45,681 nt of DNA from a bacterium (lineage in GTDB: Bacteria; B130-G9), in NCBI GenBank assembly GCA_035527515.1, contig DATLAJ010000167.1, positions 1 through 45,681 on the forward strand, in the 5' to 3' direction. The first letter of the stretch is position 1. Each line of letters opens with the position of its first letter. The notes below the pieces were generated by a model. It saw nothing but the letters and a program-made list of their open reading frames with translations, was not told the origin of the DNA and searched no databases. The position numbers and the translations under genes are program-made. Shown piece by piece: positions 236 through 20,400 of this stretch.

Positions 236-758
236 CCAGGCGCTGATGCGATGTGCTCGACGGCTGGCGAGCGCCGCTCCTTCACGATACTCTCACAATC
301 TCGAGGCACTCCGGATCAACCTCCTCTGCGATGGCGATGCTGTCAGAGATCAATAATGTAGCTGAGATTGCGGTTTCCGAAGGCGCCCAAGACGGAGGAA
401 CAAATGCGCTGGGGAATGGTGAAAGATCGGCAGGTCAAAAAACGCTTGACATGTGGATTAGGAGTGGGTTAGGCTTGCGTTGAGATTTAGTTACTGTATT
501 TGGGGAGCTTGTGCGGAAGGGCTTCGTTAGGCTGATTATTGAGGGACAATCACTTTCAGAATGCAGGATGTAAGGAGGTGATTGGTGGGGCTAGAGAATT
601 GGCAAGCAGTGATCGGGGCGAATGACACTAGTTGATTGGTAAACCAGAAACACGAGGTGTTATGGTCTAATCAGCGCGGTTGCTGCAGTTTGTCTGATGG
701 CTGAAGGTTGTTTATTTATTTTGGAGTTGTGAACCAAGGAACAGGAGACAGGAGGACG
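236..758. other. Intergenic stretch, no convincing gene
   Basis: About 520 bases without a believable coding sequence. A short open frame at 253-483 has no ribosome site or recognisable product. A TTGACA hexamer at 446-451 is followed 18 bases later by TAGGCT, a weak sigma-70-like pair that might serve the porin gene downstream. Nothing else stands out. Confidence 0.4.
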
Positions 759-1841
759 ATGACCAAGAGAGCAGCAATTTGGCTGTTAGTTATGGCGATC
801 GCGCTTGCCGCAAGCTGTGTGTTTGGTGATATTCTCACGGTCAAGCACGCGCACGGTGAGCTGACGCTGAAGGGTCTCATCCAGACCTATTATGGGATGT
901 ATGAGGATGATGCTCTAGTTGACGGGTTTGACATGAACCGTGTTAGGCTCGGAGTGGAAGGTAACGTCTATGACAAGGTGTTTTTCAACCTTGAGTTTGA
1001 CGTGAACACGAGCGGGAACGGTCTGAAAGACGCTTACATCACGTTTAAGCATATCCCGCACGTTGATCTGTCGTTTGGGCAGATGTACAAACCAGCCACC
1101 TACGAGTCTCTGACATCAAGCCGCAAACTGCCATTCATCCTTTACGCAGTGCCGACTCAGTATATGAGGTCCAACAATGTGTCCAATCGAGACATAGGCG
1201 CCAAGGTGACGTTCCACTTGGAGAAGGATGATTACACGTTCATCACTCTTGAGGGAGGCGTGTTCAACGGGGCAGGCGCCAATACAAGCGACAACAACGA
1301 CCAGAAGGACTGGGTTCTGAGGGCCTGCCTACAGCCCGTTAAGGGCGTGGAGGTTTTCGGTAACTATACGTATGGGACGTATGGCGCCAAGGGGCTTTCC
1401 ATACTGGGCGTGAGTTCGGGCCATGAGCCTTACCAAGAATACAGCGCCGGGTTGGCGATAGACTATCAGGGCCTGGACTTCGTTGGCGAGTGGATCGGTA
1501 TGAACACGAGATATTTGCCCGCGGGCGTGGGTATGGTTGACCCGCACGAACGGTCTTGGGACATGTATGGCTTCTATACCCATCTGGGGTTCAAGATCGA
1601 CACAGGCTACGACTACTTCAGCGAGGTTGAGCCGATCGCTAGGTATGAGTATCTCGACCCGAACAGCAACAATCACGTGATTAACGACCTTGCGAGGCTT
1701 ATTACTTGCGGGCTTAATGTGGCGATCGACAAACACTACGCAAAGCTACAGCTCAATTACATCATCAACCTGAACGACAGCGGTCCTGGCCGCGAGTTAG
1801 CGGACAACGTGTTCTTGGCGCAGCTTCAGGCGGCGTTTTAG
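759..1841 (+). CDS. Outer-membrane porin, OprP/OprO-like (copy 1)
   Basis: A 360-aa outer-membrane beta-barrel porin. Start chosen at ATG 759, after AGGAG (743-747) and GGAGG (751-755), because it gives a clean signal peptide: MTKR, a hydrophobic stretch, then cleavage near CVFG/DILT. An upstream in-frame start at 708 would bury this signal. The segment around residues 107-135 (FGQMYKPATYESLTSSRKLP, then a proline- and aromatic-rich stretch) matches the conserved block of the phosphate-selective porin O/P family. Length fits the family, although phosphate specificity cannot be inferred. The chain ends in aromatic F (QAAF), as expected for barrel insertion by the BAM machinery. A close paralogue follows directly (2038-3126), so this is a tandem duplication. 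Substrate unknown. Confidence 0.85.
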   Translation: MTKRAAIWLLVMAIALAASCVFGDILTVKHAHGELTLKGLIQTYYGMYEDDALVDGFDMNRVRLGVEGNVYDKVFFNLEFDVNTSGNGLKDAYITFKHIPHVDLSFGQMYKPATYESLTSSRKLPFILYAVPTQYMRSNNVSNRDIGAKVTFHLEKDDYTFITLEGGVFNGAGANTSDNNDQKDWVLRACLQPVKGVEVFGNYTYGTYGAKGLSILGVSSGHEPYQEYSAGLAIDYQGLDFVGEWIGMNTRYLPAGVGMVDPHERSWDMYGFYTHLGFKIDTGYDYFSEVEPIARYEYLDPNSNNHVINDLARLITCGLNVAIDKHYAKLQLNYIINLNDSGPGRELADNVFLAQLQAAF

Positions 1842-2037
1842 AGGACAGGCATCAGACCGCTGCTGAGCGACATAATTCGCTAGCATTCAAGGGGCAGGGG
1901 CGTTTGTGCTTTCTGCCCCTTTCGCATTGTATGGACCGCGAGACCTGGCCGAGTGTGTGCTAGGGGGTTTAGGGGGTTGAGTGTGGCAAGGTTTCGTGTG
2001 TGTGCTGCGCCTACATGAATCTGAACAGAGGGCAACA

Positions 2038-3126
2038 ATGATGAGAGCTGGGACGACATGGCTTGTTGTAGTAACGCTGGCACTTGTCGCGAACGCTGCG
2101 TTCGGCGACATTTTAACAGTGAAACATGCCCACGGCGACTTGCGCCTTTTTGGCTCGCTTCAGACCTATTACGCCAGTTATGAGGAGGACCTGGGGGCAG
2201 ATACGTTTGATCTGCGGCGTGCCCGGCTCGATGTTGATGGCCACGTTTATGATAAGGTCTATTTCTTTTTGGAGGCTGACCTGCTTGGGAACCCTCAGTT
2301 ATTGCTCGCAAGCGTCACGTTCAAACTCCCGCATCTTGACCTGCGATTCGGCCAGCAATGGAAGCCGGTCTCTTGGGAGGCGAAGCATTCTAGCAGAACC
2401 TTGCCCTTCATTGGCTATTCGCTGCCGACAGCCTATTTTCTGGCGAACAAGGTGTGCTTCATAGATATTGGGGCAAGGGCAACGCTGCACTTCGAGAGGG
2501 ACGATTTCACGATGTTTCTTCTCGAGGGCGGTGTGTTCAACGGCACTGGAATCAATACGAGCGACGACAACGACCAAAAGGACTGGGTCGTGAGGACCGC
2601 TATTCAGCCGATAAAGGGCATTAGTTTTATCGGGAACTACACGTATGGCACCTATGGCGCCAAGAGCGTCCCGGATACTGACCCGTTGTGTGGCCACGCC
2701 AACTACCAGCAGTACAGCGCCGGGTTTGTGGTTGACTACCATGGGCTGGACCTGGCGGGCGAGTGGATAGGGATGCACAGGGACTATCTCCAGAACAAGG
2801 CCAATCTCGCTCCTGACAACAAGGCATGGGATAATTATGGCTTCTACGTGCACGTGGGCTACAAGATCAACACGGGCTACGACTACTTTCAGGAAGTAGA
2901 GCCGGTCGTGCGGTATGAGTATCTTGACAGTAGCCGGGAGGTCGCAGGCGATCTGCAGCGGGCGGTAACTTGTGGCGTGAACGTGGCCATAGACAAGCAT
3001 TACGCCAGGTTTCAGGTGAATTACGTTGCGAATCTAGATGACAGCTGTGCCTATGATCCTGTTACTAGCCCCTATGGCAAGCAAGCTAACAACGTGCTTG
3101 CGGCCATGCTCTTGCTGACGTTCTAA
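2038..3126 (+). CDS. Outer-membrane porin, OprP/OprO-like (copy 2)
   Basis: A 362-aa paralogue of the preceding porin. Start is ATG 2038 (or 2041), after AGAGGG at 2027-2032. The signal peptide is MMRAGTTWLVVVTLALVANA with cleavage near FG/DILT. Both mature chains begin DILTVKHAHG and share long blocks (EGGVFNGTG/AG-NTSD, FIGNYTYGTYGAK, GEWIGM, TGYDYF.EVEP, the final barrel strands). Differences are spread through the putative loop regions, which fits an old duplication with divergence of pore loops. The protein ends in LLTF, a typical barrel terminus. The 196-base gap to copy 1 leaves room for its own promoter, but I see no convincing one. Substrate unknown. Confidence 0.85.
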   Translation: MMRAGTTWLVVVTLALVANAAFGDILTVKHAHGDLRLFGSLQTYYASYEEDLGADTFDLRRARLDVDGHVYDKVYFFLEADLLGNPQLLLASVTFKLPHLDLRFGQQWKPVSWEAKHSSRTLPFIGYSLPTAYFLANKVCFIDIGARATLHFERDDFTMFLLEGGVFNGTGINTSDDNDQKDWVVRTAIQPIKGISFIGNYTYGTYGAKSVPDTDPLCGHANYQQYSAGFVVDYHGLDLAGEWIGMHRDYLQNKANLAPDNKAWDNYGFYVHVGYKINTGYDYFQEVEPVVRYEYLDSSREVAGDLQRAVTCGVNVAIDKHYARFQVNYVANLDDSCAYDPVTSPYGKQANNVLAAMLLLTF

Positions 3127-3140
3127 AGGACCGGCTAGAA

Positions 3141-3289
3141 GAGGCTGTCCCATAAGTCGGTTTCTACGGGGATGACGCAGCGGGGTATGCCACATGTAGG
3201 GGCAGGCCTTGTGTCTGACCGAATATATAGATGGGCGGAGACAAGCCCCGCCCCTACACAACCTCGGACCCGACTTATGGGATAGCCTC
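3141..3289. mobile_element. MITE-like element, copy A (149 bp)
   Basis: The sequence begins GAGGCTGTCCCATAAGTCGG (3141-3160) and ends with its inverted complement at 3270-3289, 19 of 20 bases matching. It has no coding capacity. Its right 101 bp (3189-3289) match 4946-5046 with only four differences. The interior holds an imperfect hairpin of the GTAGGGGC...GCCCCTAC type. Terminal inverted repeats, lack of genes and a second nearby copy point to a non-autonomous transposable element. No clear target-site duplication: AGAA occurs next to both ends, but one base away on the right. Confidence 0.7.
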
Positions 3290-4175: not shown

Positions 4176-4799
4176 CTAGCGTTTGCGCTCGAGGCGCTTC
4201 CTGCACAAGAGCCTCATCGCTTTCAGAAGGGGGCGTATCGTCCTGCTCCTGAGTCGCAAGGAATTGCGGTAGCAGAACGAGACTAAGCCTCCGGGCTTAT
4301 CTGTCCGGCTTCTCTTGCGTAGGATATCGGAAAGAAACCGAATCGGCCCAGCAAACCAGAGCTCAAGCAGCGCTACGAGATGTGCAAAAGACCTGGCAAG
4401 CAAGCTAGTCATTGGAATGACATGGTTGCCTGACTTCAGCCTTATCTCAACGACCTTGCCAACAACGCACTCGGCGGGCAGGGGGAAGCATCTGGGCCCG
4501 CTGTCGCCCTTCTGAAGGAGCGAAACTCTCCCGTCCTTCTCGATCCGTTTGATGACTCTGTGGGTTACGACCTCAGGCCCGACCTTGAAGGTGACCAGGT
4601 CTCCCCGCTTAATCTCGTCGAGCTCGGTGTGTCGAAGGACTATTTCATCGTCCGGCTCGATTGTTGGCACCATGCTCAGGCCGGTCGTCTTGAGGACACT
4701 CTCTTTGCCCTTTGATTTCCAAAGGCCAAGTATCTCGTCCGCAACGCGACCGTCAATCTTTGTCACATTCAATCTCAAGCGATGTCGAAAGAGACACAA
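4176..4799 (-). CDS. SipW-like signal peptidase (S26B, Ser/His type)
   Basis: A membrane-linked serine peptidase of family S24/S26. Residues 40-46 read GLSMVPT, with the nucleophile Ser42, followed by GDLVTF and VVTHRVI. The His in THRVI takes the place of the Lys of E. coli LepB, which marks the S26B (SipW/Sec11) branch. KGDSG follows as expected. The C-terminal part (residues 130-207) is very basic with one hydrophobic stretch and is not typical. The frame opens at TTG 4799, only 20 bp from a MITE; a GTG at 4766 is an alternative start. Five upstream genes on the same strand (PqqD, SPASM enzyme, HprK-like, C25) suggest it belongs to that cluster, although the MITE separates it from the C25 gene. 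SipW-type enzymes process specific exported substrates in other bacteria; the substrate here is unknown. Confidence 0.75.
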   Translation of the reverse strand: MCLFRHRLRLNVTKIDGRVADEILGLWKSKGKESVLKTTGLSMVPTIEPDDEIVLRHTELDEIKRGDLVTFKVGPEVVTHRVIKRIEKDGRVSLLQKGDSGPRCFPLPAECVVGKVVEIRLKSGNHVIPMTSLLARSFAHLVALLELWFAGPIRFLSDILRKRSRTDKPGGLVSFCYRNSLRLRSRTIRPLLKAMRLLCRKRLERKR

Positions 4800-4819
4800 G
4801 TGTGTAGGAGACGCTTTCT

Positions 4820-5046
4820 GAGGCTGTCCAATAAGTCGGTGTGGCCTGTGTAGGGGCGATTCACGAATCGCCCTGGTCTAATCCGATCAGGCACCTTAAG
4901 GGCGGTTCGTGAACCGCCCCTACACGACATTGATGTCGTTCTATAGCCACATGTAGGGGCAGGCCTTGTGTCTGCCCGAATATATAGATGGGCGGAGACA
5001 AGCCACGCCCCTACACAACCTCGGACCCGACTTATTGGACAGCCTC
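4820..5046. mobile_element. MITE-like element, copy B (227 bp)
   Basis: Perfect 20-bp terminal inverted repeats (GAGGCTGTCCAATAAGTCGG at 4820-4839 and its complement at 5027-5046). The right 101 bp match copy A at 3189-3289 (four differences). The left part differs and contains two further perfect hairpins, GGGCGATTC-AC-GAATCGCCC and GGGCGGTTC-GT-GAACCGCCC. The element lies between the C25 protease and S26 peptidase genes. A partial end sequence (AGGCTGTCCATACTAG) recurs at about 5080, beside the C25 stop codon. Confidence 0.75.
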
Positions 5047-5093
5047 TTCCAGCCTGTTCCCCGGTGTAGGATGGATTTTCTAGGCTGTCCATA

Positions 5094-8000
5094 CTAGCGG
5101 ATCTCAAACTGCGCCTGGCTTATCCCACCTATGAATCTCGACATGTCGCCCGGCTGTGTCAGTGCGGCAAAGAAAGCATAAGTTCCGGCAGGCGCCGGAG
5201 AGGGCACCGGCAGCGATGCTGCGCGAAGCCTCAGCTTCAGATACGGCGGCAGGGCGACTCGGATAGGCGACGGATCGAGGCCGAATGAGGGGTAGTAGAG
5301 AAGGGCGCCGCCAAAATCGAGAGCCAGGTAAGCGTCCACCTGCATAGATTCGCCTCCAGTGTTCTCGAGCATGACGTCCACGTTGAGCGTCTGGCCAGCG
5401 TAGTATGTGTCCTTGTCAGTCCAGACTGTCAGCCTTGGGCCAGAAGGCGCCGTCGGAACTGCCAGCGCAAGCCCCGGATCACCAAACAGCACGAAGGTCT
5501 CGACTATCTCGTCGAAGTAACTGACATAGCCCGCCTGAGCGTAGCCTCGCACCTTGGCGACTGTCGTGGCAGCCCCTATATAGCACTCGAGATCGTAGAA
5601 TACGGACTCAAAAAACGCTCTGGCCAGAATCAGATGGCTCGACGCAGTATCAACGCTCGTCGGCGCCCAGGAAGCAATCGCGCCCTTGCCCCCGGTTCTC
5701 GCGAACACGTCGCCGAGGCAGGCCGTGCTGTCCCACATTGGGAAGAACCCGTTCAGGCAAGTCAGCATGATCACAAAAGGCATCTTGTCTCCGTTCTCAA
5801 GCTGACCAATATCGCCCGAATCAAACATTCCCTTAGCCCACCTGTTGACGTTCCCGTGACCTGCATAGTTGATCAGCAGGCAGCCCTCATTGATACTCGA
5901 CATAATCTCCTGGTTGGCACTCTCCGACGAATCATAGTCGTTGTAGTTGATCTGGGTTGCGGAATAATCGTCAGGAAGAAAGCCCGTGCCCAGCTCGTTG
6001 TTAAGCGAGACAGAAACACTCTCGTTGTCAGCGACAAACAACACCCGATGGAGCCAATCGCCGCTGGCCTGACCGTTATCGTAGGCCTGTATCTTGGCCA
6101 AAGCGTCATCAACGTCGCTCGCTCGATTGGCGCATATCCGTCCGATGTTCATGTCCGGCAAGATGTCCGAGCCATCCACGCAGACAAACCAGTTGTCGCC
6201 CGGCGTCTCGCCGATCCGTCTGGGATCAGGGTCGGTATGGACGTGCGTCGGCACGAAATCCACCTCGTGTCCGATCCTGTTCTTATAGTCCATGTTCGCG
6301 TCGCCGACTAGCAGCACGTCCGTCGGAGGAGGTGGAGAGAAACTTTCATAGGCATACTCAAGAAAATCCTTGATCGCATCCGGGCTCTTGACGCCAAAGT
6401 TGAACTCGTCATAAACATCCTCCACGTCAGCGATCAGCACCACCTCGCCCTTCGCGGCGTGGTGTTGGGCTATCCCCTGCGCCGCCTCGAGAAAATTGGC
6501 ATGTGAAATGATGATGTAGTCCGCTCGATTATTCGGCGATTTCAGCAATGACGGGGCGTCGAGAGTTGGCGATAAGCCCGTCTTGAGCACGGAGGTGTCA
6601 AGAACTACGTATCTTCTGCTCGGGCTGGCGTCATCCTCAAACCTGACGAGGTAGACGCCTCCGTCAGCCTCGACAGAGGCGTTGGCCAGATAGCAGACAG
6701 CCAACGGGTCTGTTACGTCGAAGACCAGAACATCGTTCGACGAGAAACCGCTAACTCGAAACTCCGTCCGGCCCGTCTCTTGGGGGCTGAATGCGAGGAT
6801 GCCCTCTGTCGCCACGAACGTTGCGAGGAAGGTTACTTGAACGTAGTTGAGATAGACCTGGTCAAGGAGTGTTAGGTCGCCTGGGTAGTTGATCTTGAGC
6901 TCATTGCGCCCCTTTGCTAGCATCGACTGCGCCCCACTAACGCTTTGGACGAACTTGATCTGTCCGTTCCAGGTCTTGTCATCGATAATCTGGTCGTTCA
7001 GGATTACCTGAGTGTGATGGTCAGGGTCAACACCTGTAACGTCAGTCTTGCCCCGGAATTCGGCAACGAACGTTGCGTCGAAAGGTTCGGAAGAGAGATT
7101 GTAAGTATCTAACAGAAAGACCTCCGTGTCCGGCGCGGTTACTTTGCTATGGAAATAGTGGTCCTCGCCCTCTCCGTTAGGAATGTTCTGCCAATAAACG
7201 TTATCCTGCTCGATGTGCAGCGTCTCGACGAAGGACGTGGCAACCTGCGCCGTGCCGGTCGGATGGGCATCAGATTCCTGCATCCGCGCCGCGCCGCTAT
7301 CGTCAAAGGAAAGCCAGTAGATGTTATCATTGGTGAACTCACTATCAGGCGCCTCGCCCCAGAAGAGGATGTAGTCAGCGTCATCGAAGCTCCCATCTCC
7401 GCCGTCCTCAAGAATTACCGGGACCTCCTGGCCGAGTTTTTTGAGGCTTAAATTGGCCGCGTTGATCGTAGAAAGGTCAATGCCAGCCCTGGATAGGTCG
7501 GCGCCAGTTAGTTTGTAAACTCCGTCCTCGCTCACTGCGATCTTATATTTGTCCGAGGCATCCAAAAGCTCCGTCGCGGTCGGCCCCAACGCAGGCTCGT
7601 TTTGAACCAGCAGAGGCCGGACGTCCCGAGGGTTCGCAACGCAGCTCTTAACGGCGTTGACCATCGTTTGAGACGAGCCTGCCCCGGAGTGCAAGACGCC
7701 CGCCATCTTGGCGTCTGAGTCGCACGGCAGCACGTCAAAGAAGACCTTTAGCGTTGCCCGCCTCAACACCCGAAGCTCGCTCGAGACGGGATTGAACCTG
7801 ACGGGGAAGACCATGACGCGGATGACCGGCTGGCCCCGGAACACCCCGAAGAACTCAGTCCTGACGAACGAGTCTGGATAATACGCGTCGGTTGCATGCT
7901 GCTTTTCGTCCAGCTCGAACCGAGGCTCAATAACTGTCGTATCGCCGGTCTCAACCTCGACGTACTGAAAACACGGGACTACGCGAAGACCGAAGAACTG

Positions 8001-8330
8001 CTCCTCCTGAACTGATTCGCAGCGCGCAAAAGGCTTGCATTCGGCGGGAACCGCGAGCAAGAACCCCATAAACGGCACGTCGGGCTTTCCTGGTTCGGCG
8101 ATGCTCTCGCAGCCCGCGACCTTCACGGTATCAAACATACTGCCCTGGATCTCTTGCCAGCTGAACGTCGGGCTGGGCGACTCAAAATCGATCAGGAAGT
8201 AGTTGTCGCCGCTTTCTCGAACGATGACCTCTGGAGCCTCAGAGCAAAAAGCGACCCCCCCCAGCGCCACAATGAGCGAGGCAGCTAGCAAAAAGCAAAG
8301 ACATGTTCTCGAAACGAAAGTGTTCTGCAT
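5094..8330 (-). CDS. Secreted gingipain-type cysteine protease (family C25)
   Basis: About 1078 aa. Start ATG 8330 fits AGGGG seven bases upstream; a TTG at 8354 is less likely. The N-terminus is a signal peptide (MQNTF..., hydrophobic core, cleavage near AFCS). A propeptide-like region of about 200 residues precedes beta-rich domains. The C25 caspase-like domain runs from about residue 600 to 950. The catalytic pair is visible: His in YAGHGN (about 825) and Cys in MLTCLNG (about 858), 33 residues apart, the same spacing as in RgpB of Porphyromonas. The last 105 residues form a beta-sandwich-like domain shared with two other secreted proteins in this window (12230-13096 and 17429-20620). No type IX sorting domain is recognisable. 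It follows the HprK-like gene by 40 bases, so it is probably in one operon with the PqqD/SPASM genes. It may process the product of that system; this is inference. Confidence 0.88.
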   Translation of the reverse strand: MQNTFVSRTCLCFLLAASLIVALGGVAFCSEAPEVIVRESGDNYFLIDFESPSPTFSWQEIQGSMFDTVKVAGCESIAEPGKPDVPFMGFLLAVPAECKPFARCESVQEEQFFGLRVVPCFQYVEVETGDTTVIEPRFELDEKQHATDAYYPDSFVRTEFFGVFRGQPVIRVMVFPVRFNPVSSELRVLRRATLKVFFDVLPCDSDAKMAGVLHSGAGSSQTMVNAVKSCVANPRDVRPLLVQNEPALGPTATELLDASDKYKIAVSEDGVYKLTGADLSRAGIDLSTINAANLSLKKLGQEVPVILEDGGDGSFDDADYILFWGEAPDSEFTNDNIYWLSFDDSGAARMQESDAHPTGTAQVATSFVETLHIEQDNVYWQNIPNGEGEDHYFHSKVTAPDTEVFLLDTYNLSSEPFDATFVAEFRGKTDVTGVDPDHHTQVILNDQIIDDKTWNGQIKFVQSVSGAQSMLAKGRNELKINYPGDLTLLDQVYLNYVQVTFLATFVATEGILAFSPQETGRTEFRVSGFSSNDVLVFDVTDPLAVCYLANASVEADGGVYLVRFEDDASPSRRYVVLDTSVLKTGLSPTLDAPSLLKSPNNRADYIIISHANFLEAAQGIAQHHAAKGEVVLIADVEDVYDEFNFGVKSPDAIKDFLEYAYESFSPPPPTDVLLVGDANMDYKNRIGHEVDFVPTHVHTDPDPRRIGETPGDNWFVCVDGSDILPDMNIGRICANRASDVDDALAKIQAYDNGQASGDWLHRVLFVADNESVSVSLNNELGTGFLPDDYSATQINYNDYDSSESANQEIMSSINEGCLLINYAGHGNVNRWAKGMFDSGDIGQLENGDKMPFVIMLTCLNGFFPMWDSTACLGDVFARTGGKGAIASWAPTSVDTASSHLILARAFFESVFYDLECYIGAATTVAKVRGYAQAGYVSYFDEIVETFVLFGDPGLALAVPTAPSGPRLTVWTDKDTYYAGQTLNVDVMLENTGGESMQVDAYLALDFGGALLYYPSFGLDPSPIRVALPPYLKLRLRAASLPVPSPAPAGTYAFFAALTQPGDMSRFIGGISQAQFEIR

Positions 8331-8370
8331 ATCTAAGCCCCTTTCGAGGTGCAAGTCAGATTACAGTCGG

Positions 8371-9609
8371 TTAGCCAGCGGATACGGTTTCCTCGATCAT
8401 ATCGATCATGTCGTCCAGCTTGCCGACAACCAGTTCGTAGCATTTGGTTTTGCGGACGATATCCGCCAGGGCGAGGTACATCTTTGTGACGCTTCCTTTG
8501 AACTGATTGGTCAATAGCGCCGAGCGCGCGCCCGTGCGCGACCTCGTCAGCAGCTCAAACATCGCCCTTGAATAGGGCATGGGCGTCAGTCGAGGAGGAC
8601 CTGAGAAGTCAGGCTGAGCATGTTCGCCCTTAACGGTGTCAAATATCAGGACATTGTGCTTGTAGCAGACCTCCTCCAGTTTGGCGAGGACAGGATACCC
8701 GCTCTGGACGCGGAAGCGTATTATCGGAAACTTCGCATCGGAGGTATCGCCGGTGACCTCCGTGGACTCAACCCCGTCAACCGCCCTCATCTCGCTAAGC
8801 ATCTTGTCCGAGACCTCGCTGGTTATGAGATATAAGATCGCCGCGGAGGAGGCCTGGGAGAAATCCTCGTCAGCCGAGGGGACAAGGAAGAAAATGAACT
8901 TCGCCGGGCTGGGCTCTGTGGCAAGCGCCCCCTTCAACTCACCTATGTCTAACACGCGTTTGAAGCCGCCGCCGATCATCGGGATGGTCTCGAGCCCCTC
9001 AAGGTCAATGCCTTTGAAAGTGTGCTCCACTCCCTCGCGCATCCCAAGACCCCTCGGGAAAGGATAGACCTTGTGGTCAAGCCAATGTATTGCCGCGACC
9101 TCATCCGAAAACAGAGAGAATCCCCGACCAATCAGCGACAACGTAACGGTCGTCTTACCGCATCGCGCAGCCCCGGGGATTATTATGCCGTTGCCCTTGA
9201 ACCCAACCGCGCCCGAATGAATCAGGAAATGGTTCTGTAGCTTCGCGATGAACGAGTTAAAGATAGTCATGTATGAAAAGCCGGGGAATATGTCCGGATT
9301 GGAGACAACATAGACCTTGTCGTCAGCAACCACGACTGGATTGCCCCTCACTACGGGCGTCTCGATAACGTAGTTCGTCACAACGGGCTTATCAGGAGGA
9401 GGCACAATAAAATGAGAGTACATCTTCTTGAAGTAGGAGAGAATCCGCGGTGAGTCAGACCGAATGCAGAAGTCCAGCTCGAACACCCGATAGTACTGGA
9501 CATACTTGCAGAGCTTACCGTGCCTACTGATCACCTGCTCGGGGCTTGGAGTAGCGAATCGAACCAAACTACCTCTCCTAGCGCTTCTGTCCTGCTGAAC
9601 GAATGTCAA
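8371..9609 (-). CDS. HprK-related kinase-like protein
   Basis: A protein of 398-412 aa related to the C-terminal domain of HPr kinase. HSGAV (His131) leads to a Walker A loop, GAARCGKTT (about 146-154), followed by SDE (169-171) and a PFPR block, the usual pattern of HprK-related proteins. The first 110 residues resemble no kinase part that I know. Starts: TTG 9609, or TTG 9567, which has a better ribosome site (AGGAGAGG four bases upstream). PTS phosphotransferase genes are absent nearby, so it is not an ordinary HPr kinase. Relatives occur in peptide-modification cassettes (HprK/PqqD/radical SAM sets such as SynChlorMet, and lasso-peptide kinases that phosphorylate serine). Here it lies 25 bases after the SPASM gene and upstream of the C25 protease. 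The likely role is phosphorylation of, or nucleotide-dependent action on, a peptide substrate. Confidence 0.78.
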   Translation of the reverse strand: MTFVQQDRSARRGSLVRFATPSPEQVISRHGKLCKYVQYYRVFELDFCIRSDSPRILSYFKKMYSHFIVPPPDKPVVTNYVIETPVVRGNPVVVADDKVYVVSNPDIFPGFSYMTIFNSFIAKLQNHFLIHSGAVGFKGNGIIIPGAARCGKTTVTLSLIGRGFSLFSDEVAAIHWLDHKVYPFPRGLGMREGVEHTFKGIDLEGLETIPMIGGGFKRVLDIGELKGALATEPSPAKFIFFLVPSADEDFSQASSAAILYLITSEVSDKMLSEMRAVDGVESTEVTGDTSDAKFPIIRFRVQSGYPVLAKLEEVCYKHNVLIFDTVKGEHAQPDFSGPPRLTPMPYSRAMFELLTRSRTGARSALLTNQFKGSVTKMYLALADIVRKTKCYELVVGKLDDMIDMIEETVSAG

Positions 9610-9634
9610 ACATGTCGGACCCCGCTCGACATTA

Positions 9635-11026
9635 CTATATCTGAATCTCCTCTGAGCTACTTAAGCACTGTTTGCCTTTGAGCTTCGGGAATATCTCGAA
9701 GAAGAGCTCCTCAAAAAGCTCCTTTCGCAGCTCGCACTGCGCATCCTCCGCCAATAGCGTCCCGTTATCGACCAGCGCCATTCCAGGGCATCCGCCCTGG
9801 CAATAGTTCTTGAACGAGCATTTTCTACACGCCTCAACCGTTTCCATCCTGCTTGCCAGAACTTTATGCAGATTCATGAACTTATCACTCTCCGCTGCCT
9901 GCTGCAATGTCATGTTCCAGATATTTCCCAACTCGAATTCAGGCTGATTGAGCATCGAACAGGGGTATATCTTGCCCTCGGGACCGACCTCAAACATCTC
10001 GCCCACGTGGCACCACATCTCGTCGTCCGGCACATCGATATAAAGGCCCGGCATCCCGCCGCCAATGGGTAACTTGCTGCTTGAATCGGTCAGAATATCG
10101 AAGAACCTCCGGTAGAAATGGCGATAGCTATCTAGCGTCGGGTTGAGCGCCTCGAAGTTATCCTCCGCTCGCCCAAGCCGCGCAAGAAACAGAAACCTTA
10201 TCCCGCCGATTTCAAGCCTCTCGCCCAACTCCAAAAGCGCGTCAAGGTCCTCGTCCGGCTGCCCCACGAGCGTGCGGCAGACCTCCACATTGGCGCCCGC
10301 CCCGTGTGCCTGCAAAAGCCTGATCCCAGCAAGCGCCTTCTCAAACGCGCCGGCGCCTCGAACGGCATCATGCACCCTCGCACTAGCCCCGTCCAAACTC
10401 ACCTGAAATGTGACTGGAAGCGGGCCCAAACCGCCGGCAAGCTCCTCGGTTACGAGCGTGGCATTTGTCGAGACAATCGTCTTCACCCGCGCGGCAGAAT
10501 ACTTAACTATCTCAACTATGTCCCCGCGCAGGAGCGGCTCGCCACCAGTGATAGCAATTGACGAGTCCGGCCTCTCGGCCAACTGGTCCACGATGCCCTT
10601 GACGTCCGACGTCGAAAGGCCGTCGCTCTTGTGCAGCGAACTAATGGCCCCACAATGTTTACACCTCAGGTTGCAGAGTCCTGTAATGGTGAGATGCACT
10701 CGCTTGTTGACCCTGCCATAAGACCTCTTCTGTGCCACGTCGCGGTCGCTGAACATCCCGCCCGCCCTAAGCTGCCTAAGTGCGCCACTAACGTCTGCCT
10801 CGACGCGGTCTAGTTCAACCCCGTAGTGACTCGAAACCACCTTCGCTATATCTGAGCTGGTCCGTCTCCCGTCGCATAGCGATGCGATGAACCGGGCTGT
10901 CTCGTTGAGCATAGCGAACCTCGGCAGTCTCGGGTGCAGCAACAAAAACTGCCCATCCCTAGAAACCTCGAAAAAACCATCGGGAATCTTGGGCCTTTCA
11001 ACCGAAACCGAAATCTGCTCTGTCAA
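9635..11026 (-). CDS. Radical SAM/SPASM enzyme with N-terminal PqqD domain
   Basis: A 463-aa PqqE-type enzyme. Residues 10-95 form a PqqD-like winged-helix peptide-binding domain (LLLHPRLPRFAMLNETA, CDGRRT). The radical SAM core carries the CxxxCxxC cluster ligands Cys118, Cys122 and Cys125 and the GGEPLL motif. The C-terminal SPASM domain has a complete set of auxiliary-cluster cysteines: 339, 356, 400, 403, 409, 413 and 431. Such enzymes form C-C, thioether or similar crosslinks in ribosomally made peptides held by the PqqD domain. Start is TTG 11026, with GGAG eight bases upstream. A second, free-standing PqqD-like gene precedes it by 27 bases. Substrate peptide not identified; no candidate small gene lies between the operon genes. 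Confidence 0.9.
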   Translation of the reverse strand: MTEQISVSVERPKIPDGFFEVSRDGQFLLLHPRLPRFAMLNETARFIASLCDGRRTSSDIAKVVSSHYGVELDRVEADVSGALRQLRAGGMFSDRDVAQKRSYGRVNKRVHLTITGLCNLRCKHCGAISSLHKSDGLSTSDVKGIVDQLAERPDSSIAITGGEPLLRGDIVEIVKYSAARVKTIVSTNATLVTEELAGGLGPLPVTFQVSLDGASARVHDAVRGAGAFEKALAGIRLLQAHGAGANVEVCRTLVGQPDEDLDALLELGERLEIGGIRFLFLARLGRAEDNFEALNPTLDSYRHFYRRFFDILTDSSSKLPIGGGMPGLYIDVPDDEMWCHVGEMFEVGPEGKIYPCSMLNQPEFELGNIWNMTLQQAAESDKFMNLHKVLASRMETVEACRKCSFKNYCQGGCPGMALVDNGTLLAEDAQCELRKELFEELFFEIFPKLKGKQCLSSSEEIQI

Positions 11027-11053
11027 GCTTCAGGCTCCAATCCGCTCGCCAAG

Positions 11054-11326
11054 CTACTCGTGAAGTATCCCATCCTCTCTGAACCTCTCGATCGCTGCCT
11101 CGACATCGCTCTTGACGTCCCGCCCCTCCGGCGGACCGAGGCTCTCTGTTATCTCCGCCGCAATCTCCTCGATTGTGTGTTTGCCGTCGCAGAGCTCCCA
11201 GACGGCTGCAGCCGTCTTGTTCAGCATCGAGACCTTATCATTCTCGCAATTATACAACAACGTTTCATCGCCCATCTCGGACTTCTCCAAACCCGGCCTC
11301 GCTACCGGCCTGTACTCGCTGCCCAT
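11054..11326 (-). CDS. PqqD-like peptide chaperone
   Basis: A 90-aa protein with the PqqD fold pattern: RPVARPG, then LLYNCENDKVSMLNKTAAAVWELCDGKHTIEEI split over several strands and helices, and a C-terminal helix ending in FREDGILHE. PqqD proteins and the related RRE domains bind leader peptides and deliver them to modifying enzymes. Start is ATG 11326, eight bases after GGAGG. It is the first gene of the minus-strand operon that continues with the SPASM enzyme, which has its own PqqD domain, so the system has two. One may serve a different partner, for instance the HprK-like protein. Confidence 0.85.
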   Translation of the reverse strand: MGSEYRPVARPGLEKSEMGDETLLYNCENDKVSMLNKTAAAVWELCDGKHTIEEIAAEITESLGPPEGRDVKSDVEAAIERFREDGILHE

Positions 11327-12229
11327 TAAGCTAACCTCCAAATCGTGGCAAACGCTTTCCTGAACAATCGTGCCTCAAAGCACCCGCATCAACAACGCTC
11401 CTCTCCTATGAAGAATAACTCGAAGTTGGCCAAAATGTCAAGCTGCATGGCGAGGCAACATAAAAGCGCCCCGCTCCCCATTCACATTACACCCCTCGCG
11501 CAGCGGCCGAAACGGGCCTCACTCGCTCTACCGCAAGACGCCAGAGGTCAACTTGGCCGCCATCGCACCCGACCGCGCCATTCTGCCCAATCGAAAGCGC
11601 CCAAGGCAGATCAACGCCAAAACTCTTCGTTGCAGACCAGGAGTTTTCGTATTTTTTGATTAAGGAGTGTTGTGTTGTTGGCTGTGGTTCTTGGTTCTGG
11701 CCAAGAAGGAACTCGTGCTTCGTAGCCTTTGCTACTCTGCGAAGCGCAGAGTAGCACGAGCGCAGAGTGGCAGTGGAATTAGGATTGACGTGATGCTGAC
11801 GTTTCGGTTCCCCGAAGGGGGGCCACAATAGTAGCCGTAGGTAGAACCTACGGAATCCGTTCACGTCGGTATGCTCGCGAGCCCGAAGGGGTCGAACAGC
11901 CCGTCCAGAGGGCTATGTTCAGCCCTTTCAGGGCTGATGATGTTTCCTTCTCTGACCCTGACCCGTAGGTTTCACCTACGGCTACTCACGTTCATCCCCT
12001 TGCGGGGATGCCGGAAGAACGCCGTCAGTTCAGCAGGCCCGGGCACGATTACGAAAACTCCTCGCACAAGAGCGCTTGAGGTGCTGACGGTATGTCTGTT
12101 ATCGTTTTTCGCAATTAGGCCCGCATCTTCTGTGAGCCTAATACGACCCACGGGCGGCCCATCGGCAACAGTTGGTTTTGGCCGGGTGTAGGCCACCACG
12201 CCGAACCCGGGGACAAGGGAGGCAGGAAG
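11327..12229. other. Intergenic region between divergent genes, no gene seen
   Basis: About 900 bases separate the PqqD operon (minus) from the propeller-protein gene (plus). The operon promoter should lie here, but I see no convincing hexamer pair. Open frames such as 11487-11864 (minus) are arginine- and proline-rich, run through palindromes and look accidental. I looked for a short precursor peptide gene with a ribosome site and a leader/core pattern and found none. The right half is filled by hairpins. Confidence 0.5.
11712..12010. repeat. Cluster of short perfect hairpins (REP-like)
   Basis: Several near-perfect palindromes with 3-4-nt loops follow each other: TGCTACTCTGCG-AAG-complement (11730-11756), CCCC-GAA-GGGG (11810-11820), CCGTAGGT-AGA-ACCTACGG (11835-11853), CAGCCCT-TTC-AGGGCTG (11920-11936), CCGTAGGT-TTC-ACCTACGG (11963-11981) and CATCCCC-TTGC-GGGGATG (11993-12010). 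The two CCGTAGGT units are also inverted relative to each other, with GTAG on the outer side. This resembles REP/BIME arrays, but no transposase lies nearby. Confidence 0.65.
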
Positions 12230-13096
12230 ATGCGAAGAGTACTCTTATTATCAACGTTCGCAGCATTGGTTGTCGCTGCGTGTCAGTTGGCGTTCGGTTT
12301 CGGGACGTCACTTGACGTCAATACGGACGCCACGGGCTATTTCGCTGGCGACGTGCTCACGGTCTCGTTGTCGGCGATCAACATGACGCTGGTGGAGGCT
12401 GAGGTGGACCTCTACCTCGCGCTCGAGGTTCCTTCTGGCGAGTTTCTCTTTTACCCCGGATGGCCCGTTGAGCTGGCGCCAGCGATATCTGGGGTCGTCT
12501 TGTCGGGAGGGGCGCGCGTCGGCCCGGTCGATTTCCTGAAGATTGGTCTTCCCAGCAGTTCTCAACCGATTGAGGGGCTCCACAGATACAGAGTCCACGC
12601 GGGGCTGGCGGCTGCTGGGACTCTCGATTTCGATCCCATCGACACCGTTAGGTTCAACGTGCTCAGACGAGGCGCGTGGGAGACTTATTCGAACTCGAAT
12701 GAGATCAGGGACCTTCTGCTACGAGATGACGGGATGGTCTATGCCGCAACTACTACTGGGTTCATCGAGGCGAATCTTGGGACAGGGCGTTACAAGAAAT
12801 ACACCACAGCAGATGGCCTTCCCTACCCCTCGATCCAGAGCATCACCATGGGCCCTGATGGCGCGCTATGGCTCGGCTCAGGTAATCCAATGAGCAGGAA
12901 GACAGGCCAGGGCGTCATCCGTTACAAGGACGGCAGATTCAAGGCCTATACAACGGAGGATGGGCTTCTGGGCGACTGGGTTTCCGGCGTCACGTTCGAT
13001 TCAATTGGCCGGATGTGGTGTTCGGTTTTTGGCGCACATCTGTGCCCGCCGGGCGTGATGTTCTGTGCCTGCCGCGGAAAGTCCGAGGCGGGTTGA
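12230..13096 (+). CDS. Secreted protein with unknown domain plus truncated regulator-type propeller
   Basis: 288 aa. ATG 12230 follows GGGAGG (12217-12222) by seven bases. A signal peptide (MRRVLLLSTFAALVVAACQL) is followed by the domain shared with the C25 protease and the 1063-aa protein (residues 26-145). From residue 145 come Reg_prop/two-component-propeller repeats: LPYPSIQSITMGPDGALWLG, GVIRYKDGRFKAYTTEDGL, GDWVSGVTFDSIGRMW. Such propellers normally need many more blades. This chain breaks off after about three and ends in an unrelated cysteine-rich tail, so the gene is probably truncated by a deletion or frameshift. A regulated-looking promoter overlaps its stop codon and leads into the two-component genes. 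Confidence 0.7.
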   Translation: MRRVLLLSTFAALVVAACQLAFGFGTSLDVNTDATGYFAGDVLTVSLSAINMTLVEAEVDLYLALEVPSGEFLFYPGWPVELAPAISGVVLSGGARVGPVDFLKIGLPSSSQPIEGLHRYRVHAGLAAAGTLDFDPIDTVRFNVLRRGAWETYSNSNEIRDLLLRDDGMVYAATTTGFIEANLGTGRYKKYTTADGLPYPSIQSITMGPDGALWLGSGNPMSRKTGQGVIRYKDGRFKAYTTEDGLLGDWVSGVTFDSIGRMWCSVFGAHLCPPGVMFCACRGKSEAG

Positions 13097-15421: not shown

Positions 15422-16904
15422 TGGAGCTGGTCGTTACAAGCTGCTCGTTGTCGATGACGAGCCCCACGTCCTCGAGACAATAATCGACGTTCTGGAGGAT
15501 AGAGACGAGGATGGCGAGATTGAGTTTTTCCGGGCTGGATGTGCGGAGGAGGCGCTCGATATCCTTGAGGAGAATCACGGAGATATCGATCTCGTCCTCA
15601 CAGACCAGCGGATGCCCGGTATGTCGGGTGCGCAGCTCTTGGAGAGGATTCACGCCAAGTATCCATTGATCGGCTCGATAGTAATATCCGGTTTCGCCGA
15701 GTTTGAGGATATGCGGAGCGCTTTCAAGTCGGGCATCTTTGACTACATCAAGAAGCCTTACGACGAGGACCACCTGGTTGGCGTGGTGAGATCCTCGCTG
15801 GAGAAAACGGAGCTAAGGCGTCGCAACGCGGACTTACTGGAGGAGCTGAAGGATGCGAACCAGTTTCTCGAGCAGCGTGTAAACGAGCGCACCTTGGAGC
15901 TGAAGCACAGCCTGGAACGGCTGAAGAGTATGCAGCAGCAGCTGATTCAGGCGGAGAAGCTGTCCTCGCTGGGGCAGCTGGTTGCTGGCATCGCGCACGA
16001 GATCAACAACCCCGCTACCTCTGTCTATGCCGGAGCCGAGGCGCTCGAGAGCAATGTTGAGGAGCTTGTAAACTATTTGGAGCGGCACGAGGACCTGCTG
16101 AAGGCGATTAAGGACGGTAATGGCGGCAAGGTCAAGGAGCTCGCCGATGGGCTGATCAATGCGGAGGAGGATGTTGATTATCTTTTGGAGGAAGGACTTC
16201 CCTGGAGCATCAGGTCGATGAAGGAGGGTGCGGTGCGCATCAAGGACATCGTGCGCAACCTCAAGACTTTCTCCAGGGTTGATGAGGCCGAGGTCAAGCA
16301 CGCCAATATCAACGACGGGATCAAAACCACTGAGAAGCTTATCCACCATGAGCTCAAGAACAGGATCACGGTGCACGAGGAGTTCGGAGACCTGCCGCAG
16401 CTGGAATGCTACCCCGGCCAGCTCAATCAGGTCTTTATGAACATCCTGGTCAACGCGGCTCAGGCGATCGAGGGCGAGGGTGCCATTTGGATAAAGACAT
16501 ACACCGAGCGCAACAACATTGTCATAAAGATAAAGGACACCGGCGGCGGCATCCCGAAGGGAGCGCTGAAGGATGTATTCAACCCGTTCTTCACGACCAA
16601 GCCGGCTGGGCAGGGCACAGGTTTAGGCCTTTCGATCAGCTACGGCATAATCAAGAAACATGGTGGCGAGATAACCGCGGAGAGCGAGCAAGGAGTCGGG
16701 ACCGAGTTCACCATTGTCCTGCCTTTCGATGGCGTCCAAAAGGCGAGAGAGAGGGCCAGGCATGAGGGCGACTCAGCGCGCAGTCAATACGAGTTCTTCG
16801 ACGCGTCCCGCATAGAAGAGCTCGAGAAGGAGCTCGCTCAGATCGACGCGAGTTCAGGCCAGCCGGCCAAGTCCGCACCAGACCCACGCGACGATGGCCA
16901 TTAG
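15402..16904 (+). CDS. Hybrid receiver-histidine kinase
   Basis: 500 aa; ATG 15402, or ATG 15408, which sits seven bases after GAGGA. Order: receiver domain (residues 12-130, Asp68 in VLTDQRMPG, Lys in YIKKPYD), coiled coil (135-180, KDANQFLEQRVNERTLELK), HisKA with His199 in AGIAHEINNP, then the ATPase domain with NAAQAIEGEG, DTGGGIP, FNPFFTTK and GTGLGLSISYGIIKKHGG. An N-terminal receiver with a C-terminal kinase means that it is itself controlled by phosphorylation, probably from the kinase encoded just upstream. The last 25 codons are copied almost exactly at 20786-20862. Confidence 0.9.
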   Translation: MLMVSGSGAGRYKLLVVDDEPHVLETIIDVLEDRDEDGEIEFFRAGCAEEALDILEENHGDIDLVLTDQRMPGMSGAQLLERIHAKYPLIGSIVISGFAEFEDMRSAFKSGIFDYIKKPYDEDHLVGVVRSSLEKTELRRRNADLLEELKDANQFLEQRVNERTLELKHSLERLKSMQQQLIQAEKLSSLGQLVAGIAHEINNPATSVYAGAEALESNVEELVNYLERHEDLLKAIKDGNGGKVKELADGLINAEEDVDYLLEEGLPWSIRSMKEGAVRIKDIVRNLKTFSRVDEAEVKHANINDGIKTTEKLIHHELKNRITVHEEFGDLPQLECYPGQLNQVFMNILVNAAQAIEGEGAIWIKTYTERNNIVIKIKDTGGGIPKGALKDVFNPFFTTKPAGQGTGLGLSISYGIIKKHGGEITAESEQGVGTEFTIVLPFDGVQKARERARHEGDSARSQYEFFDASRIEELEKELAQIDASSGQPAKSAPDPRDDGH

Positions 16905-16906
16905 CC
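16830..16906 (+). repeat. 77-bp direct repeat, copy 1 (3' end of the hybrid kinase gene)
   Basis: The last coding bases of the hybrid kinase gene plus its TAG stop recur at 20786-20862. Bases 16839-16906 are identical to 20795-20862 (68 of 68), and the nine bases before have two differences. In copy 1 the repeat is coding; in copy 2 it lies in a gene-free stretch about 4 kb away in the same orientation. Confidence 0.85.
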
Positions 16907-17428
16907 GGGCAATCACAGCGGCAGCTTTATCCCTCCTGTAACCAGACCACCCAGCAGCAGTATCCTCGCCGTGAGCACCCGTGCCGCGTGATTGCCTCGC
17001 CTCGAGGGATGATGCCGAGCTTATACTGGATAAGGAATAGCACGTTCCAAAAAACAAACGCTTCGGCCAGACACCAGGGCCTTCCATAGACATGGTTTAT
17101 CCTTCATAACGTAATCCTCTTATCCGCGAAGGACGGAGGGTAGTTCTAAGGCTGATTCATCCTCTCTCTCGCCTGCCTTGGTCTCGAGCTTGAACTGCTG
17201 CCAAATAAAAGGCCCAGCGGGAGCTCTTCACGCACGCGGCCCGAAGTGCTACGTTGATAACGATCGGCGAGGCACGGAATATGGCGCTGACGGCGGTAGG
17301 GGACATGGAATTGCGACGATTCGCGGGACTGCCAGGACACCTGGCCTCCCGGCGAAAGGTGATGCCGATGCAGTACAAGGTTAGTAAGGCTGGTCTGGGG
17401 CTATCGACCATACTCAAGGAGGGTGAAA
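16905..17428. other. Intergenic stretch with repeat fragments, no clear gene
   Basis: About 520 bases. A fragment at 17008-17040 (TGATGCCGAGCTTATACTGG...) resembles 23591-23620 (TGATGCCGAGCTAATACTGG...), so a dispersed repeat is present. A 60-codon frame at 17254-17436 overlaps the start of the next gene and looks mildly coding, but it has no recognisable product or ribosome site. Confidence 0.4.
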
Positions 17429-20400
17429 ATGAATAGAATGAAAGATGTGATGTATTTAGTTGTTGTATTGATTCTTTCTTTGTTCCTGATGGAATCGGCA
17501 TCGTTTGCAGTCGCAGAGCGTGGTTCTGCCAATGCGAGACTAGCGCTGAGCGGAGACGGGGGACCCGTCTGGGGTATGCCGGGGCAGGACGCCCGAAACA
17601 GCTATTGCGGGCTATTCCCTGCGCCGGCGGATTCACCCGGGCACTGTGAGATACAGGAGAACGTCTATACCCCCCTTGTCTATAGTGAGAATGAGATCTA
17701 CGTTCAATCTTCGGATGGCATAGCCCGGATTGACATTGAGGGTGATGTGAAATGGACCTGGGCCCCGGATGATGGCAAGACCACAGGATTAAGGGCTGTG
17801 ACAAGTGACCATACAATCTACGCGGTAGGCGCCTCCGTGGATAATCCCATCGTCCTTTACTCCGTTAATTCCGGGGGCCAAATGAACTGGTCATACACGT
17901 TTCCCGGAGATGGGGGGATTTGCCAGGATTATAGCCTCGATGCGCGAGCGGGCTTCCTGGGGGCTTGCTCCATACTAAACAGGGACATTGGTGATGGGTG
18001 GACAACCGCAGTCTGGTCTATCAGCCCGGAAGGAGAAGTCGCCTGGACTTACGGTTCTGGGTCTGTTCAAGGGCTGGCCGTCGCGGAGAGCGGCAACATA
18101 TACGCTTTAATTGGATCGTCATTCCTGACCTCCCTGGATGCCGACGGGAACGTTCGCTGGCGCCATGAAATACAAACAGGTCCCAGTGACCATATCACTG
18201 GTCTGAGCATCGGGCCAGGTGAAAGAACCATATTTGAGCATGAGAGATCCGCGCAGGGCGGATATTGGGAATATGATGTTGACGTCATTTGTTGTGTGGA
18301 CTCCGCAGGTGAAGAGAAATGGACGTTCTCTCCGGCGTTCGAGGGATGGGGCTCGTGGTGCAAATCGCTGGCATGGGATTCGTTTGGCAGGATAATGGCT
18401 GTGTATCAGGAATGGGACAAGCATGAGGCAGGTTACTCCGATTACTCTCATTTATTCTGCATGTCACCGGATGGGGAGCTGCAATGGACATACACGGTTT
18501 CGGATTGCGAGCTTGCCCGCCACCTGGTGACCACATCGGATGGCGCTTCGCTGATCTACGCCGAAGGCATTGCGCATACCGAAATTCACTGCATTAACAG
18601 CGAGGGAGAGCTGAGATGGGTGCGAGAGGCCCTCCCTAGGAGCGGCCTACCAACGATCATCGGGCCGGGCAAGTTCCTTGTAGCCTGTTTTGTTGACCAA
18701 CCTCAGCTTCACGTTTTCGCACCGGATTTTACTATCCTACACTGCACTTCGCCGGAATACGCCAACACGGCGATTGCCGTCGAATACGAGGTGAGTGCCC
18801 TGTGTGGATTGGATCACGTCGAGCTGTGGTACAGGTATGAGGGCGGGTCTTGGGCGGACAGCAGCCTGCGCGGGTATGAGGCGATTGGGGAGTTATCTTT
18901 TGAGCCGCCGGATGGGGACGGCGAATACGCGTTCGCAGTCGTCGCGGAGGACATCGAGGGCCACAGAAGCACGTTGCCGGATGAGGCGCAGGCCACAACG
19001 GTCTATGATACATCAGCACCGACATCGAGCGCCTCGTGCGAGGCATATTCGACTGGTTCGACTGTTCAGGTATCATACTCGGCCTCGGACACAACCAGCG
19101 GAGTGGTCTCCGTTTCGCTGTGGTATCGAGGCCCAGATTCGGGGCGGGGCTGGGTGGATTCAGGGTTGAGCGAGGCGGAGCCTGAAGGGGTGTTCTCCTT
19201 CGTCGCGGCCGCTGATGGCGTCTATGAGTTCGCAACGGTCGCCCAGGACCTTGCCTCGAACACGGAATCGCTCCCGGAAGGACCAGACTGCACGGTCGTC
19301 GTGGACACAACCGCGCCAGTTTCGTCATGTGCATCCCCAGGTATGGTCAACCAGTATCCGATTGAGGTTGAGTATAGCGTGACCGATGAGACGAGTGGGG
19401 TTGCCTCGGTCGAGCTGTGGTTCAGCTACGAAGGCGGGACATGGACAGACAGCGGAATCGCGTCTACGAGCGCTGCCATATCCGGCTCGTTTGAATTCTC
19501 GCCACCCACCCAAGACGATGGAACCTATGCATTTGCCACGTTCGCACGTGACCGCGCGGGTAATGTTGAGGCGCTGCCTGATGCTCCCGATGCCACAACT
19601 TTGGTCGATACGATTCCGCCCGCTTCAAGCTGCTCTTGCGACGAAGTGGCCCATGATTTCCCTGTCGCGGTGTCCTACACGGCCACGGATGCCGGGAGCG
19701 GGGTGAGCTCGGTCGCTCTGTGGTATAGATTCGAGGGCGGCGATTGGGCCAACGCCGGCCTCTGGGCGCCGATGGCGAACGCGAGCTTTAACTTCCGGCC
19801 GAGTGTGCAGAGCGAGGGCCTCTACGAGTTCGCGACGATTGCAGAAGATACCGCCGGCAACGGGGAATCGCTGCCGGATAATCCCGATTGCAGTGTCAAC
19901 GTTCGATTCCCAGCGCCTCGCATCGTGGTGAGCCCGGAGAGCATTGATTTCGGCGAGGTTGCGGTTGGTGGGGAGGCGGTTGACAGTATAGTGGTGGATA
20001 ATGCGGGAGACGCAGTTCTTGAGCTATATCATGTATCGATTAATGGGGATGGCTTCTCCCTTGACTTGGGAGAGATTTCGCTTCCATGTAGTATCGAGCC
20101 GGACAACCAGATCGAATTCGATGTGATATTCGGTCCAGAGTCGGCCTCGGATTACTCTGGCGTCGTCTCCGTAGAATCGAACGATCCTGATGAGCCGAGC
20201 GTTGAGATGAATCTGGCTGGTTCAGGCAGTAGTGTGGGGGGACTTGTGCTGCGGGTATTCACAGACAGCAGTTCCTATGACTTCGGAGATACGATCTATC
20301 TCTATGTGGGGGCCAACAACATGGGAGATGAGTCCGAGGTCGATGTGTATCTGTTCGTGTGTTACGACTATCTCGGACCCGAGCACGTTGGCTGGTACGC

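Follow-up and report, generated by a model that had tools for sequence, protein, structure and literature searches.

A conserved PqqD, radical SAM, HprK-like kinase, C25 and S26B gene cassette in Candidatus Coatesbacteria as a probable RiPP-type peptide maturation system

Gene organization and conservation of the cassette

The stretch of DNA analyzed here (the window) comprises 45,681 nucleotides of contig DATLAJ010000167.1 (GenBank assembly GCA_035527515.1), which belongs to a 3.47-Mb metagenome-assembled genome (MAG) of Candidatus Coatesbacteria designated G000. Positions 4176-11326 hold a cassette of five minus-strand open reading frames (ORFs), which encode a stand-alone PqqD protein, a PqqD-radical SAM (rSAM)-SPASM enzyme, an HprK-like kinase, a C25 peptidase, and an S26B peptidase. 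PqqD is the fold of the recognition element (RRE) of ribosomally synthesized and post-translationally modified peptides (RiPPs). The intergenic gaps are 27, 25, and 40 bases, followed by a miniature inverted-repeat transposable element (MITE) of 228 bp before the S26B gene. An earlier note on this DNA had described this layout, and its coordinates, gaps, and MITE all agree with the ORF positions. Its view that the genes form a single system is upheld by the recurrence of their order across distant groups.

Three Coatesbacteria relatives (G001, G002, and G003) were compared with G000, and all five genes are found, in the same order, in all four genomes. They lie on one contig in G002 and are spread over two contigs in G003, while in G001 a contig end cuts the S26B gene; the flanking genes vary among these genomes. 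Distant groups show the order rSAM-HprK-C25(-S26B) again. G044, from a remote small phylum, carries PqqD, a precursor gene, a gene for a secreted protein, rSAM, HprK, C25, and S26B, and parts of the cassette are seen at contig ends in G189, from the same phylum. In a third phylum, G139 shows PqqD, precursor, secreted protein, rSAM, and HprK before its contig ends, and in a large fourth phylum the rSAM enzyme is found at E < 1e-115 in six of the 395 genomes sampled. In this fourth phylum, G421 has the complete set, as does G044, here with overlapping genes; G700 and G719 have it in the same order with extra genes, and G660, G595, and G463 have parts. Contig ends leave only part of the cassette in view in these three genomes as well as in G139 and G189, and no HprK gene was detected between rSAM and C25 in G463. 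The neighborhood comparison proposed in the earlier note thus yields a conserved five-gene order with a co-occurring small gene, and homologues of the SPASM and C25 genes, whose complete separation would have spoken against a common system, are decisively found together in distant genomes. Because the gene order recurs over such distances, the grouping is not a matter of chance, and the cassette is almost certainly a real conserved system. Four of its genes have dN/dS values of 0.10-0.19 in the closest pair, G000 and G001, which indicates purifying selection. A plasmid search gave no close relative.

A promoter-like site, TTGACA-18-TATTCT, lies upstream of the cassette on the minus strand (11412-11441); it matches the consensus at 10 of 12 positions, and its -35 box is kept in G001. 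The MITE-like insertion between the C25 and S26B genes (4820-5047) has 20-bp perfect terminal inverted repeats and is private to the lineage of the window, the S26B gene following C25 directly in G001, G002, and G003. A partial copy is found at window positions 3189-3289, and related copies are present elsewhere in the genome. Upstream of the cassette in G002 and G003, a stretch (L027:7980-8049 and L029:2526-2595) is conserved at 82% over 72 nt, for which there is neither an Rfam match nor a matching ORF. Two similar outer-membrane porin genes lie in tandem at window positions 708-3126, the first of which matches phosphate-selective porin O/P.

Enzymes of the cassette

The first gene (11054-11326, minus strand) encodes a stand-alone PqqD/RRE protein of 90 amino acids (PF05402, E 2.8e-13), with a start at ATG 11326, a GGAGG ribosome site common to G000 and G001, and a dN/dS of 0.19. 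The second (9635-11026, minus strand) encodes a maturase of 463 amino acids composed of PqqD (residues 28-90), Radical_SAM (113-267), and SPASM (342-403) domains. In Pfam searches the two PqqD units score 50.4 and 49.5 bits (cut-off 23.4), and the Radical_SAM and SPASM domains score 81.5 and 29.7 bits. The CxxxCxxC motif (118/122/125) and the SPASM cysteines 339, 356, 400, 403, 409, 413, and 431, ten cluster cysteines altogether, are invariant in 13 homologues, in line with the two PqqD units and full set of SPASM cysteines that had been noticed earlier. Such a combination of recognition elements with a modifying enzyme is one of the features expected of a RiPP system. The nearest solved structures by PDB profile are anSME, CteB, and SkfB. 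The rSAM tree places the cassette enzymes in one clade (support 99/97), which includes one rSAM without PqqD, from G311, on a long branch. A sister clade is formed by proteins of 828-864 amino acids from six other genomes (L188-L193), having a PqqD-rSAM-SPASM-like start and a long C-terminal half. Since all ten rSAM/SPASM cluster cysteines are present, a cross-link on the Cys-rich core can be proposed by family inference, and it is likely that the enzyme introduces one.

The HprK-like kinase (8371-9609, minus strand; 412 amino acids) is the weakest family call, with 52.6 bits for HprK_rel_A (cut-off 200) and 24.6 bits in Pfam (cut-off 33.3). The call is upheld despite these sub-cut-off scores because the protein matches the profile of an HprK structure (PDB 3tqf, E 9.8e-5) and has an invariant histidine and P-loop, His131 and G151/K152 being unchanged across nine homologues. 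The HprK-type kinase of the earlier note therefore stands, if weakly scored, and the enzyme may well phosphorylate its substrate. AlphaFold single-sequence models of the HprK and S26B proteins reached a pLDDT of only 37 and 41, respectively, and were not used.

The C25 gene (5094-8354, minus strand; 1086 amino acids, with a likely start at ATG 8330) encodes a gingipain/PorU-like cysteine peptidase with a signal peptide, a propeptide (PF08126, 57.6 bits), and a catalytic domain (PF01364, 262.5 bits; cut-off 23), which substantiates the secreted gingipain-like protease seen in the first reading. Its catalytic His833 and Cys866 are invariant in 11 homologues, as expected for family C25. The PDB profile matches are PorU (6za2) and gingipain R, and PorU is also the best NCBIfam match, at 259 bits under a cut-off of 420. 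Having both a signal peptide and a propeptide, the enzyme must therefore act outside the inner membrane. Its C-terminal domain of about 110-120 amino acids (5097-5459, minus strand) has no Pfam or NCBIfam family and is matched by about 20 other stretches of G000 (L238-L257), mostly at protein C-termini. A role as a sorting signal is not concluded because the domain sits N-terminally in some other proteins. The N-terminal part of a secreted beta-propeller-type ORF at window positions 12230-13096 also resembles it. The C25 protein at L269:11729-15685 ends in GGGGGGCFITTAAHGF, and in its neighbor (16044-17576) a similar CFI-box-like motif precedes a hydrophobic stretch and a basic tail; these ends are possibly C-terminal sorting signals.

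The last gene (4176-4799, minus strand), whose start codon is uncertain beside the MITE, encodes a protein of the S24/S26 family. Its closest profile is SEC11C (E 3.5e-9), placing it in the Ser-His type S26B (SEC11/SipW-type), with histidine in place of lysine. Of the residues Ser42, His80, and Asp99, the serine is kept in six of seven homologues and the other two in all seven. Hydropathy shows no membrane helix before Ser42 and one weak stretch after the domain. The initial description as a SipW-like signal peptidase consequently has to be revised, as no membrane helix is present at the N-terminus and the protein instead resembles a leader peptidase, a function that is likely by analogy with the system described below.

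Precursor peptides

A small peptide gene lies beside the rSAM gene in nine of the nine non-Coatesbacteria cassettes, several of them having a strong ribosome site. The peptides share a conserved leader, YxxPx[V/I/L]xTY...GPAQ-x-C, and a short core that begins with cysteine; examples are MEKREYEKPQVITYSEDEILELIGPAQTCTTSPTPQ (G421), MEEKLSYEAPKLITYSNDDILDEVGPAQACAPTPCPVGNV (G700), and MIMEKKNSENREKKTDRKPKYVQPEVITYTNDDVIKHLGPAQACSTTPCTVSPSGSGF (G044). A profile built from the nine precursors recovers its members at E 1e-19 to 1e-23 and, over the 1.12 Mb of 79 unrelated rSAM loci, yields nothing better than E 0.5, and no Pfam or NCBIfam model matches the family. Directly 3' of the precursor gene in G421, G660, G595, and G700 (L271, L267, L270, and L268), intrinsic terminators of -17.7 to -22.5 kcal/mol (z -4.4 to -8.2) are found, as in operons that over-produce their precursor.

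Searches by ORF conservation, motif, and hidden Markov model revealed no precursor within the cassette of Coatesbacteria or in its flanks. The nine-member profile did detect precursors in trans in G000, outside the window, namely MTEKTTYEAPKVITLGSRELMSQLGPSLSCTGFGGAVDC (C132, E 7.6e-8) and MAPNSTYEAPKVITLDSQRIMSALGPSLSCTGFGGAVDC (C57, E 2.3e-6), and a third, MKTNNVYEAPRVQTFDNEALTAALGPSLSYTGFGGSLKC (G000:C66), likewise outside the window, was added after the profile was rebuilt. This search covered 1.196 Mb of G000 in non-random stretches, consisting of long contigs and contigs with C25-profile matches. The earlier note had seen no precursor gene and supposed that the substrate may be encoded elsewhere, which fits these three genes. 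Conserved-leader precursors with short cores are therefore linked to the modifying enzymes both in cis and in trans, as in RiPP systems. The positions -3 and -1 before the conserved cysteine are occupied by A/S/V and A/T/S, respectively, and cysteine is at +1 in 11 of 12 precursors. Because the residues before the cysteine follow a small -3/-1 rule, the alignment suggests leader cleavage at [A/S]x[A/T/S]|C. An orphan core without a YxxP leader, LGPSLSCTGFGGSVSC (L336:540-629, G000:C74), lies downstream of a gene whose product has the recurrent C-terminal domain at its end and is perhaps a decayed precursor.

Secreted proteins with a fibronectin type III (FnIII)-like tail

All three G000 precursor genes abut a gene whose secreted product ends in an FnIII-like tail, recognized by the motif GFxxYR...YSFxDxDVxxGxxYYYxLxDIDxxG. 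One precursor gene lies between two tail genes, another immediately precedes the gene for a tail protein that matches the C25 profile as well, and the third immediately follows a tail gene. With just six tail genes in the part of G000 searched, three such adjacencies would arise by chance with a probability of ~1e-6 (permutation). Outside Coatesbacteria, five of nine cassettes hold a tail gene (G044, G189, G139, G719, and G463), two further C25 genes have one as a neighbor (G386 and G189), and none occurs elsewhere in 2.35 Mb of other loci or in the control loci. At L234:6531-10648 and L233:6727-10918, C25 genes adjoin tail genes without an rSAM cassette, the C25-tail pair standing alone. The link between C25 and the tail proteins is genomic only, and we tentatively suggest that C25 acts on or with them, a proposal with somewhat less than an even chance.

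Proposed pathway and alternative explanations

From these genes, RiPP-type peptide maturation is very probable. In the pathway that we favor, the PqqD/RRE units would bind the small precursor through its YxxPx[V/I/L]xT... leader, and the PqqD-rSAM-SPASM enzyme would modify the short Cys-rich core, probably by a cross-link. The HprK-like kinase would phosphorylate serine or threonine, after which the soluble S26B peptidase would take off the leader, most likely at the site given above. C25, exported by Sec, would work beyond the inner membrane, where the secreted tail proteins encoded beside the precursors are its probable targets or partners. In the other phyla the precursor and cassette are together, and in Coatesbacteria one cassette would serve several pairs of precursor and tail protein elsewhere in the genome. 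This scheme with all its assigned steps is probable as a whole. The original suggestion of a system that modifies, exports, and matures a peptide most likely holds for modification and maturation but is unsupported for export, as the cassette has no transporter.

Several observations weigh against the proposed pathway. HprK similarity is weak, and the homologue at L066 lacks the acidic motif; the S26 homologue at L268 has cysteine instead of the catalytic serine. In the C25 tree the cassette proteins do not come out as a single clade, and their monophyly is not rejected (AU test, p 0.15). Four of the nine non-Coatesbacteria cassettes have no tail gene nearby, the precursor search took in only 34% of the genome of the window, and the lack of a transporter differs from the closest known system.

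It is unlikely that the large secreted tail proteins are the main substrates, in which case C25 would handle the tail in the manner of a sortase or maturase and the peptide would be a cofactor, chaperone, or regulator instead of a product. Tail genes do stand beside C25 genes even where there is no cassette (G386 and G189), the cassette C25 is PorU-like in both NCBIfam and PDB searches, and one G000 tail protein itself holds C25 regions. However, the RRE-type leader of the precursors is strongly conserved, and they are linked to the cassette in nine of nine cases, against five of nine for the tail genes. The rSAM, HprK, and RRE proteins lack a secretion signal and have no access to a secreted protein once it has been exported. 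Short, variable cores of Cys, Pro, Ser, and Thr are typical of RiPP products, and an ABC-type exporter pair adjoins the G700 cassette, as would suit a free secreted natural product (an antimicrobial or signal), with C25 just trimming or degrading peptides outside and the tail proteins being unrelated passengers. This is also improbable, since most cassettes have no exporter or immunity gene, the adjacency of precursor and tail genes is far above chance, and cores within a genome are near-identical (CTGFGGAVDC occurs twice), unlike diversifying toxins.

PorU as the best NCBIfam match further raises the question of whether the cassette is a sortase operon of type IX secretion (T9SS), and in G139, which encodes SprA, the cassette protein P0003 has a T9SS tail. 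Such an assignment is very improbable, since the translocon SprA is absent from G000-G003 and G044, with only a sub-cut-off fragment in G189, and PorU in known T9SS has no RRE, rSAM, or HprK partners. That neighboring genes without shared function came together by chance or hitchhiking is hardly credible, even for contigs from MAGs, because their order is kept over very large distances (28% identity for rSAM and 21% for HprK between G000 and G044) with different flanks, and the genes overlap in G421 and, in the pair G000 and G001, are under purifying selection. Within the favored RiPP pathway, C25 could in addition be a transpeptidase of the sortase kind, attaching the modified peptide to the C-terminal FnIII-like tail of secreted proteins or putting it in place of the tail, but we consider this role unlikely.

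Relation to known systems

The closest known system is that of the linear polyphosphorylated peptides (LPP), reported in 2026 from Bacillota, which combines an RRE, an HprK-like kinase that phosphorylates the core, and a SipW-like leader peptidase (PMC13381572). LppS, a SipW-like Ser-His-Asp enzyme without an ordinary secretion role, cuts the LPP leader solely when the RRE presents it (PMC13381572), and YxxP is the leader motif bound by the RREs of both lasso peptides and LPP (PMC13381572, PMC12710340). The cassette shares with LPP a discrete RRE of the PqqD fold, the HprK-like kinase, a SipW-like (archaeal-type) Ser/His/Asp peptidase, and the YxxP leader. An NTP transferase is a further shared element in G700, the only genome with one by Pfam, and probably in G719. 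A frequent setting in polysaccharide loci is also shared. In contrast, the window cassette adds the PqqD-rSAM-SPASM enzyme and secreted C25, and neither it nor G421 has an MsbA-like transporter or NTP transferase. The LPP leader, YxxPxVLxHQxIxFETxxS, has just YxxPx[V/I/L] in common with the cassette leader, which continues as ITY..DEI..LGPAQ-C. Whereas LPP is found in Bacillota, the cassette occurs in Coatesbacteria and three other phyla, and its precursors may be in trans with FnIII-tail proteins. The cassette would work like LPP but is not classed as LPP because it lacks a transporter and, in the window, an NTP transferase, and because its leader motif differs. The earlier statement that no related system is known to add C25 and S26B enzymes thus fails for S26B, as LPP pairs the RRE and HprK with a SipW-like peptidase (PMC13381572), and holds for C25 in the papers searched. 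In this literature no paper joins PqqD with a gingipain, or PqqD, HprK, and rSAM with a signal peptidase, and none joins rSAM, C25, a precursor peptide, and a sortase.

Paeninodin-type lasso clusters (HprK kinase, NTP transferase, RRE B1) have the same YxxP leader logic, PqqD-like RRE, and HprK-like tailoring kinase, but the five genes of the cassette include no macrolactam synthetase or B2 transglutaminase-like peptidase. SynChlorMet, GeoRSP, and HPr-rel-A systems (NCBIfam) combine PqqD, rSAM/SPASM, and HprK-like proteins in various ways but have no C25 or S26B. Identity with these systems was rejected on scores below the NCBIfam cut-offs (ScmD 30/100, ScmE 116/400, GeoRSP 68/400, HprK_rel_A 52.6/200, and PqqD_rel_X 29.5/35 bits). 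Maturases of the CteB/SkfB type, for sactipeptides and ranthipeptides, resemble the cassette enzyme in their RRE, rSAM, and SPASM architecture and Cys-rich substrates; the cassette rSAM differs in forming a distinct clade with an unrelated precursor and with HprK, S26B, and C25 as partners. PorU and the gingipains share the propeptide and the catalytic His/Cys domain, and PorU cleaves C-terminal domains, but Coatesbacteria have no T9SS, as judged from the absence of SprA, and the cassette C25 is encoded with RiPP enzymes. A related PqqD-rSAM-HprK-rSAM cluster without C25 is present in G312 (L068). It includes two YxxP peptides (YAAPRVLATYSKEELEEAIRPHG...), has an ABC-type exporter pair next to it, and is a possible sister family.

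Conclusions

The logic of an RRE, an HprK-like kinase, and a SipW-like leader peptidase, described in 2026 from Bacillota only, is extended here to candidate phyla without cultured members and is combined there with radical SAM chemistry and a protease of the gingipain/PorU type. Its precursor family is missed by annotation pipelines. If the transpeptidase role of C25 were true, the system would be one of peptide tagging of surface proteins, with a separate small tag gene beside every tail protein gene and a single enzyme set serving them all in trans. Through the fixed pairing of precursors with secreted tail proteins, the idea that RiPP enzymes may act on proteins of the cell surface instead of producing a free natural product becomes testable.

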